Of a stretch of DNA of 64,000 bases, positions 33,745 through 35,507 are shown piece by piece. The translations under genes and the position numbers were made by a program. Below the pieces are notes generated by a model. The model worked only from the letters and a program-made list of their open reading frames with translations, did not search any database and was not told where the DNA came from. Location of the stretch: positions 1 through 64,000 of the IMG/VR virus record IMGVR_UViG_3300027902_000008; one strand, 5' to 3'. The stretch's first letter is position 1; every line of letters starts with the position of its first letter. Source of the DNA: a virus.

Positions 33745-33879
33745 GTTAGATTCTGTTCAGTTAGATTATGTTTTGGTAGATTAAATTGAGTTACTTTTAA
33801 TTTCTTTGTGTTGAATTCTGTTATTTTGTTTTGTGTTGAGTTTAGTTAAGTTGCGTTACGTTGTATTAAATAAAGTTGG
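33745..33879 (+). repeat. GTTNN pentamer array 1a
   Basis: Twenty-seven 5-nt units in constant phase; nearly all read [G/A/T]TTNN (mostly GTT), the two spacer bases vary. G+T-rich, C-poor on the + strand. Only the units at 33775 (GGT) and 33870 (ATA) break the pattern. Noncoding: a period of five cannot keep a reading frame, and stops are frequent. A 27-codon frame at 33702-33785 runs into it and is not supported. Confidence 0.85.
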
Positions 33880-33910
33880 AGAAAGGGCAGGTGATAGATT
33901 ATGTAAATAT

Positions 33911-34045
33911 GTTGAGTTAATTTAAGTTGGTTTCGGTTGGATTAGGTTAAGTTAATTTCGGTCAAGTTAATTTCAGTTCAGCTTTGTTGTGTTAGCTTAA
34001 TTTCTTTTTGGTTCTGTTAAGCTAATTTTGGTTGGGTTGTGTTAT
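33911..34045 (+). repeat. GTTNN pentamer array 1b
   Basis: Twenty-seven further pentamers in one constant phase, separated from array 1a by 31 bases that include GGGCAGG. Triplets are GTT or TTT in most units, with single GTC, GCT, CTT and ATT variants. It ends 19 bases before the start of the gene at 34065, so it would lie in that gene's mRNA leader. Confidence 0.9.
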
Positions 34046-34064
34046 ATCTAAAGGGAGGATACAA

Positions 34065-34682
34065 ATGGTGAAGCAAAGTCCAGTAAAGGCAGTTGTTTTA
34101 AATGCAATAGATGTAAAATCTTTCAAGGTTTCAGTTGAAGGTATGACTCCATTTATCTCTCATAAATTTAGTGAGAGAAATATGAATCAAATGGAGGAGA
34201 AGCAAAGAAAGGAAAATACAAAAGAAAGGAAAGCGAGAATATCTATTGAAGATGAAGTTGCGGATTGTATTCATCGCTTAGATAACGGAAAAGTAGGTTA
34301 TCCTACTGATGCTTTTTATAATGGTATGCGTGAAGTAGCTCCATATCTTACTAATATGGATAAAAAACTTGTTCAGGGTTCAGTTAAGGTTTCTGGTTCA
34401 GACGGTTGTCCGTTAGTAGAGATTAAACACTCTAAACAGGTAACACAAAAAGATTTTGTTAAACTATCATCTGGCGTTGCTGATGTTAGATATAGACCGA
34501 GATTTGAGGGATGGAGTTGTGAACTTTTCATTAGATACAACGCTGCCCAAATTTCTCCTGAACAGATTATCACCCTTATAAATCTGGCTGGATTTCATAG
34601 AGGAATAGGAGACCATAGACCAGGTTCCCCAAAAAAGCCAGGAGATAACGGGATGTATAGAGTAAAAGAAACTGTAAAATAG
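34065..34682 (+). CDS. Conserved phage protein of unknown function
   Basis: 205 residues behind AAAGGGAGG; the in-frame start at 34032 lies in the repeat array. The opening VSVEGMTPFISHKFSE resembles a common phage family that begins with a G-x-TPFIxHKFSE-like motif; I know of no proven function. The end GIGDHRPGSPKKPGDNGMYRV is also distinctive. Flanked on both sides by GTTNN arrays. Usually paired with a protein like the next one (from memory, moderate confidence). Confidence 0.7.
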   Translation: MVKQSPVKAVVLNAIDVKSFKVSVEGMTPFISHKFSERNMNQMEEKQRKENTKERKARISIEDEVADCIHRLDNGKVGYPTDAFYNGMREVAPYLTNMDKKLVQGSVKVSGSDGCPLVEIKHSKQVTQKDFVKLSSGVADVRYRPRFEGWSCELFIRYNAAQISPEQIITLINLAGFHRGIGDHRPGSPKKPGDNGMYRVKETVK

Positions 34683-34707
34683 GCAACTGAATTTTTGTTT
34701 ACATTAG

Positions 34708-34847
34708 GTTTTGTTCGGTTCTGTTGCTTTTGGTTGGTTTCAGTTCCATTATTTTCATTTAAGTTTTGTTGTTTTAAGTTCTGTTGGGTTGAGTTACGTT
34801 TTGTTTCGTTGGGTTACGTTCATTTCATTTGGGTTTTTTTGGGTTAA
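34708..34847 (+). repeat. GTTNN pentamer array 2
   Basis: Twenty-eight pentamers in unbroken phase, every one starting GTT, TTT or ATT. An open frame of 61 codons crosses it but has no ribosome site and only reflects the lack of stops. The array is followed within three bases by an intrinsic terminator, ahead of the gene at 34907. Confidence 0.9.
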
Positions 34848-34849
34848 GT

Positions 34850-34886
34850 GGGCAAGGGTTCAGAGATGGACTCTTGCCCTGTTTTT
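34850..34886 (+). terminator. Intrinsic terminator/attenuator after array 2
   Basis: Twelve-base-pair stem (34850-34861 with 34868-34879, two G-T wobbles), six-base loop, then TGTTTTT and a second T-run. It sits between the array and the ribosome site of the next gene, the position of an attenuator rather than an operon end. Confidence 0.85.
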
Positions 34887-34906
34887 AAGTTTTTAAGGAG
34901 GTATAA

Positions 34907-35404
34907 ATGGTAAAATATAAGGCAAGAGAAGGTTCAATATTTAATGACGAACAGGCAAATATCTATGGTAAATGTGTTGAAAAGATAGAGCAGGAAAAAG
35001 GGTCTGTTAAGCCTTTAGATGTTGTTGAGGAAGGGGAAAAGACAGAATCTCCTTTACACGAATACTTTGATTGGGATGATAAATCTGCTGCTGACAAACA
35101 TAGATTACAACAAGCGAGGTATTTGCTTAATCATTTGATAGTTGAGATTACGATTGAAGGTAAATCTAAAGACCAAAATGCTTTTTTCAGCGTAGATATT
35201 GATATAGAGGGTGGTAATAAAGGTTATCTGTCTTTAGGAAAAGCTTTATCTATTCCAATATACAGAGAGCAGGTTTTGGATGTTGCTTTGCGTGAATTGC
35301 AATATTGGCAAGATAAGTATAAAGACCTTAAAGAATTAAGCCTTATATTTATAGCGATTAGGAAGATGAGACAGAAGATAAATAAGAAAAAAGGAAAGCC
35401 ATAA
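34907..35404 (+). CDS. Conserved phage protein of unknown function
   Basis: 165 residues behind AAGGAGG. Contains LHEYFDWDDKSAADKHRLQQAR, which I recall as a conserved segment in phage proteins encoded next to the TPFIxHKFSE family. Ends in a Lys-rich helix. No catalytic motif visible. Preceded by array 2 and an attenuator-like terminator, followed by array 3. Confidence 0.7.
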   Translation: MVKYKAREGSIFNDEQANIYGKCVEKIEQEKGSVKPLDVVEEGEKTESPLHEYFDWDDKSAADKHRLQQARYLLNHLIVEITIEGKSKDQNAFFSVDIDIEGGNKGYLSLGKALSIPIYREQVLDVALRELQYWQDKYKDLKELSLIFIAIRKMRQKINKKKGKP

Positions 35405-35412
35405 TTTTGTAA

Positions 35413-35507
35413 GTTAGGTTGAGTCGTATTACGTTGGGTTTTGTTTGTATGTGTTGGTTTTGGTTATATTTAGTTCTGTTTTGTTGTGTTGGGTTTCGTT
35501 CGGTTAT
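35413..35507 (+). repeat. GTTNN pentamer array 3
   Basis: Nineteen pentamers in constant phase, mostly GTTNN with a few TTT, ATT, GTC and TAT variants. It ends about 28 bases before the small gene at 35535. Same strand and composition as the other arrays. Confidence 0.85.

Follow-up and report, generated by a model that had tools for sequence, protein, structure and literature searches.

The window analyzed here, i.e., the first 64,000 bases of the 92,940-base IMG/VR virus record IMGVR_UViG_3300027902_000008, harbors four period-5 arrays, which are all located on the plus strand between plus-strand ORFs and together comprise 104 five-base units. The gene order is HNH endonuclease gene, arrays 1 and 2, P0001, array 3, P0002, array 4, and a small ORF. 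The features are listed below; vrRNA and vap designate the guide RNA and the accessory gene, respectively, of VIPR, a phage-encoded system introduced further below.

33745..33879, plus strand: GTTNN array 1, 27 units, GTT/TTT/ATT in 25 of 27; putative vrRNA tract
33911..34045, plus strand: GTTNN array 2, 27 units, GTT/TTT/ATT in 23 of 27, directly 5' of vipr; putative vrRNA tract
34065..34682, plus strand: vipr, encoding P0001, a 205-aa RAMP-family protein; putative vrRNA-binding subunit
34693..34847, plus strand: GTTNN array 3, 31 units, GTT/TTT/ATT in 31 of 31; putative vrRNA tract
34850..34879, plus strand: hairpin with a 13-bp stem and a subsequent T run, located 2 nt 3' of array 3
34907..35404, plus strand: P0002, candidate VIPR accessory protein (vap), matching phrog_15946
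35413..35507, plus strand: GTTNN array 4, 19 units, GTT/TTT/ATT in 17 of 19; putative vrRNA aimed at DNA methyltransferase genes
35428..35477, plus strand: units 4 to 13 of array 4, with the NN pairs AC GG TT TG GT GG TG AT TA CT

Pooled over the 104 units, the first position is G in 0.64, T in 0.22, A in 0.12, and C in 0.01 of the cases, and positions 2 and 3 are T in 0.96 and 0.97. Positions 4 and 5 contain 0.05 and 0.02 bits relative to the genome background, and the NN spacers comprise all 16 dinucleotides with an entropy of 3.77 out of 4 bits. The best in-phase run scores of arrays 1 to 4 are 23, 19, 31, and 15, compared to maxima of 9, 8, 12, and 7 in 2,000 dinucleotide-preserving shuffles per array. 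The strict 5-nt phase reported in the first-pass annotation is hence real (scores of 15 to 31 versus a shuffle maximum of 12), and its view of a conserved triplet with a 2-nt spacer rather than a plain microsatellite is borne out by NN pairs close to background next to a TT that is retained in 96 to 97% of the units. The coordinates given there for arrays 1, 2, and 4 were retained, while array 3 starts 15 nt earlier, at position 34693, and has 31 instead of 28 units. A period scan of the complete 92,940-base record located its strongest period-5 signals in the array stretch; when the whole record was searched for exact 7-unit runs, arrays 1, 3, and 4 were the only matches. A search of phage records with the DNA of the array stretch as the query gave no match, and an Rfam search of the window detected tRNA only.

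Folding of the array 2 RNA is stronger than that of dinucleotide shuffles (z score of −5.3) and of unit-order shuffles (z scores of about −3.3 to −4.0), unlike that of the other three arrays. The region around the hairpin (34838-34900; minimum free energy of −23.3 kcal/mol, z score of −3.3) would provide array 3 with an intrinsic terminator or its putative vrRNA with a 3' cap. A common 3' tail was not seen in the four arrays, whose 3' flanks align poorly and include one hairpin, that after array 3. Directly 5' of array 1, the HNH endonuclease gene (33208-33690) possibly encodes a homing endonuclease.

Sequence profiles and a structural model indicate that P0001 is a member of the Vipr RAMP family. 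A P0001-family profile of 25 members gave a strong match to one PDB sequence, namely, chain D of entry 36pp, "SUSP1 Vipr protein" (E=1.3e-40), and weak matches to three Csm5 sequences, and the comparison of the single P0001 sequence with 36pp chain D resulted in E=8e-6. P0001 and SUSP1 Vipr were retrieved by one profile. The AlphaFold (AF2) model of P0001 has a pLDDT of 87, and its fold matches are Csm3/Cas7 RAMPs (E=2e-7). An oligomerizing RNA-binding protein, as had been proposed from the arrays themselves, thus seems to accompany them in the form of a predicted RAMP/Cas7-type Vipr encoded in their midst. A scan of viral contigs with P0001 alone as the query found nothing, so that alignments were needed to gather its homologues.

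The earlier statement that no described element resembles these arrays has been overtaken by a preprint from April 2026 (PMC13142463, bioRxiv 2026.04.26.720920). According to its accessible text, VIPR consists of the phage-encoded RAMP Vipr, vrRNAs of alternating GGY and NN, and an accessory vap gene. The NN pairs read a DNA target with a one-base skip, located preferentially at codon wobble positions, and DNA binding, repression, and interference with phage are reported. The same text distinguishes seven VIPR types and describes the scaffold as GGY/NN "or a related consensus"; the vrRNAs analyzed there have 9 to 16 units, for the SUSP1 clade, an invariable structured 3' tail with a conserved fold is given, and the architecture of the arrays differs between types (PMC13142463).

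The association of arrays and vipr genes was found from both sides. A scan of viral contigs for the (GTTNN)x8 pattern, hence based on the DNA pattern alone, yielded at least 38 loci with high-entropy GTTNN arrays. P0001 relatives are present in 27 of these 38 loci among the matches listed, mostly close to the arrays. Clustering of the ORFs from the listed array loci and the window, with no gene chosen beforehand, revealed one dominant family of ~200 residues that occurs in 28 of 39 loci and includes P0001. Starting from the protein, a strict degenerate period-5 array was detected in 83 of the 126 viral loci that had been collected by Vipr alignments only; any conserved triplet was scanned for, and nearly all of those found in the 83 loci were GGC, GTT, or GGT. 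With a looser cutoff and within 3 kb, 82 of 159 Vipr loci showed GGY-type and 42 GT-type arrays (124 of 159 together), compared with 9 in the reversed-sequence control; this larger set takes in loci that were first found through their arrays, but most were found by protein alone. GTT arrays were located 101 times on the vipr strand and 5 times on the opposite strand, and many of the array loci among the matches listed contain several consecutive arrays instead of a single array for each gene. The 34 GTTNN matches obtained from 84,980 genomes of bacteria and archaea were for the most part repeats of 10 or 15 bases with low diversity, and no Vipr was present beside them in the stretches fetched. 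On the Vipr tree, loci labeled GG or GT cluster by label, with at least about nine changes, which is a rough count given the fast method and the long branches.

Both positive controls, SUSP1 and mycobacteriophage Quico, showed a vipr gene with GGY arrays. The Quico gene QUICO_57 (NC_028751.1, 37686-38285, locus L410), annotated as hypothetical, encodes a Vipr homologue, and GGC arrays are located immediately 5' of it. Relatives of P0002 were found in 91 of the 159 Vipr loci, in 75 of these on the same strand just 3' of vipr. SUSP1 vap1 was not detected with the P0002 profile, and the predicted structure of P0002 was of low confidence without a useful fold match; a role as an accessory (vap) protein is probable. 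Four GTTNN loci without a Vipr match (L115, L167, L200, and L219) were put aside, as their arrays lie over an ORF instead of between genes; this opposite-strand ORF of about 280 aa is common to all four.

For decoding, the arrays were read as NN-x-NN with x representing 0 to 3 bases, and these readings were matched against 3.0 Mb of fetched sequence. With a skip of three bases, the arrays retrieve themselves, and this reading is uninformative. Among the four window arrays and skips 0 to 2, only array 4 with a skip of one base stood out, with six loci at a score of ≥16, and in all six the antisense reads IHPTQKP, the third position of each codon being the one skipped. Shuffling of the unit order of array 4 (n=150) resulted in at most one locus at a score of ≥16; the best scores were 19 for the real array and 18 for its shuffles. 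Units 4 to 13 correspond to the antisense of the codons S/R-Y-I/M-H-P-T-Q-K-P-V, and under the 1-nt skip rule array 4 spells (N)SYIHPTQKPV in antisense, a motif conserved in N6/N4 DNA methylases. The exact 10-unit pattern occurs in three IMG/VR contigs, in all three cases within ORFs with N6_N4_Mtase and in two with ParB_N; as the 10-unit window was picked after the first matches had been seen, this search is a follow-up rather than a blind test, and the order shuffling is the independent one. At locus L408, 12 successive units match, and its product reads RDNTNSYIHPTQKPV, compared with the decoded R-D/E-P-T-K/N-S/R-Y-I/M-H/Q-P-T-H/Q-K/N-P-V. A search with a 12-unit pattern of array 4 gave no match. 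The best target match covers 29 of 38 bases, and no full-length target was found. Comparison of the decoded peptide with phage records retrieved annotated DNA methyltransferases and ParB-type proteins with weak E-values, and N6_N4_Mtase had no match in the 92,940-base record itself. Since IHPTQKPV is a very common motif, no single gene is marked out as the natural target. The units of array 4 with an ATT or TAT scaffold still match the methylase target, which suggests that scaffold recognition tolerates departures from GTT. The assumption of free spacers in the first-pass annotation is at odds with the decoding of the array 4 NN pairs to a conserved methyltransferase motif, and in the closest known system the NN pairs carry the target (accessible text of PMC13142463).

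No target was found for arrays 1 to 3 in the 3.0 Mb of fetched sequence with skips 0 to 2, and their decoded peptides, in the orientations tried, gave nothing convincing in Pfam, PHROGs, or a phage tblastn search. A control pattern of eight array 3 units hit two unrelated places without extension, and these matches were rejected as chance. The targets of arrays 1 to 3 may be absent from the sequence searched. A comparison of 274 arrays with the same 3.0 Mb revealed, beyond array 4 of the window, isolated matches only, at a level equal to that of other skips.

Taken together, the arrays are very probably guide-RNA (vrRNA) genes of a phage-encoded GUU-scaffold VIPR, with array 4 aimed at a methyltransferase gene, as judged from sequence, the structural model, and analogy. 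Each array would be transcribed on the plus strand, and Vipr subunits would be arranged along the RNA at a spacing of one subunit to five bases, each bound to the UU-centered triplet, as we infer from the published SUSP1 system together with the RAMP fold and the 5-nt register. The NN pairs would bind one strand of the DNA target as NN-x-NN-x with one base skipped per unit, a mode of pairing published for SUSP1 and supported here for array 4 only. Array 4 would thereby address an N6-adenine/N4-cytosine DNA methyltransferase gene with the skipped bases at codon wobble positions, and its binding would probably repress this gene in a competing phage, a prophage, or the host. Binding of vrRNA, the 1-nt skip, and repression are carried over from the accessible text of the preprint (PMC13142463), while the anatomy, the protein family, the linkage, the strand bias, and the decoded conserved motif of array 4 derive from the sequences studied here.

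We assign the locus to VIPR on the basis of its protein, its arrangement, and the code as read in a single array. As in SUSP1 (type II) and its relatives, intergenic arrays that combine a fixed triplet with hypervariable NN lie on both sides of a phage Vipr RAMP gene and adjoin it on the same strand, with an array 5' of vipr, others 3', and a small 3' gene as the candidate vap. The 1-nt skip at wobble positions likewise gives a plausible target, here for array 4 only. The differences concern the scaffold, which is GUU/DUU, its first base being loose, and not the published GGY, the length of 19 to 31 units versus 9 to 16 in the published vrRNAs, here treated as variation, and the lack of a common 3' tail and of a detectable relation of the candidate vap to SUSP1 vap1; for scaffold and length, the comparison refers to the accessible preprint text. 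The arrays share with class 1 CRISPR-Cas systems (Csm3/Cas7) the RAMP fold and the presumed assembly on a guide RNA in which positions are left unpaired at regular intervals, but their period is 5 nt rather than 6 nt, and no CRISPR-length repeat adjoins them. No cas genes were detected among the neighboring proteins searched, and PADLOC gave no match for them; weak HNH matches were the only exception.

An alternative explanation, which we consider improbable, is that Vipr binds the arrays for autoregulation only or that they are decayed, nontargeting guides, arrays 1 and 2 maybe being relics. The abundance of ATT/TTT units in these two arrays, the loose first scaffold base, the self-folding of array 2 beyond that of its shuffles, and the missing targets of arrays 1 to 3 would all fit, but the retention of TT next to near-random NN pairs and the match of array 4 to methylase genes even at ATT and TAT units argue against it. 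Far less probable still is the TRAP-like ring envisaged in the first-pass annotation, in which a ring-forming protein would bind GUU repeats in leader RNAs and control translation or termination, with neutral spacers. The repeated triplet plus 2-nt spacer indeed resembles the (G/U)AG-NN sites of TRAP (MtrB), arrays 2 to 4 are located 5' of the start of the next gene, and a terminator-like hairpin follows array 3. However, the triplet is a different one, the units are more numerous, the linked protein is an unrelated RAMP, many loci have consecutive arrays instead of a single array for each gene, and the decoding of array 4 to a conserved protein motif is unexpected for neutral spacers. Moreover, a TRAP-family gene is absent from the 92,940-base record, in which TrpBP (PF02081) was not found; the same search did find it in the Bacillus subtilis control. 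Low-complexity DNA expanded by replication slippage has practically no chance of being the explanation: plain GTTNN microsatellites do occur in other genomes and some phages, but the plain microsatellite is ruled out here by the NN entropy of 3.77 out of 4 bits beside three constrained positions and by the linkage to Vipr, as the arrays recur beside one gene family in divergent phages.

Within the preferred reading as vrRNA genes, the GUU scaffold might represent a distinct form of VIPR outside the GGY code as published, featuring a loose first base, much longer guides, no common 3' tail, and several switches between GG and GT on the Vipr tree; we regard this as a tentative idea with somewhat unfavorable prospects. 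The accessible text of the preprint admits a related consensus, and GT scaffolds occur in 42 of 159 loci, so that the locus is cautiously filed with VIPR and not as a separate variant. If the distinct form is real, its guides would reach up to 31 units and specify about 62 bases of a target. The locus lends support, in a phage and with a scaffold beyond those worked out in the accessible preprint text, to a gapped RNA-guided code for which an origin before CRISPR has been proposed. Array 4 offers a readable prediction, namely, that it is aimed at DNA methyltransferase genes such as other phages carry, and the recurrence of GG and GT over the Vipr tree provides a set of protein-triplet pairs for learning how scaffold recognition changes.

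A second pentamer class, TTTNN with spacers of the AC/CC/TA type (AAAGN-like on the other strand), was observed in many phage contigs (L026, L031, L036, L041, L055, and others). Hardly any of these loci shows a Vipr match, and the arrays often end with ...GTTGAACGGTCGTTGAACGG. Elsewhere in the window, the tandem repeats at 2-207, 1697-1769, and 7283-7319 encode glycine/serine/tyrosine-rich stretches of the GGATATAGTGGA type, probably belonging to virion proteins.
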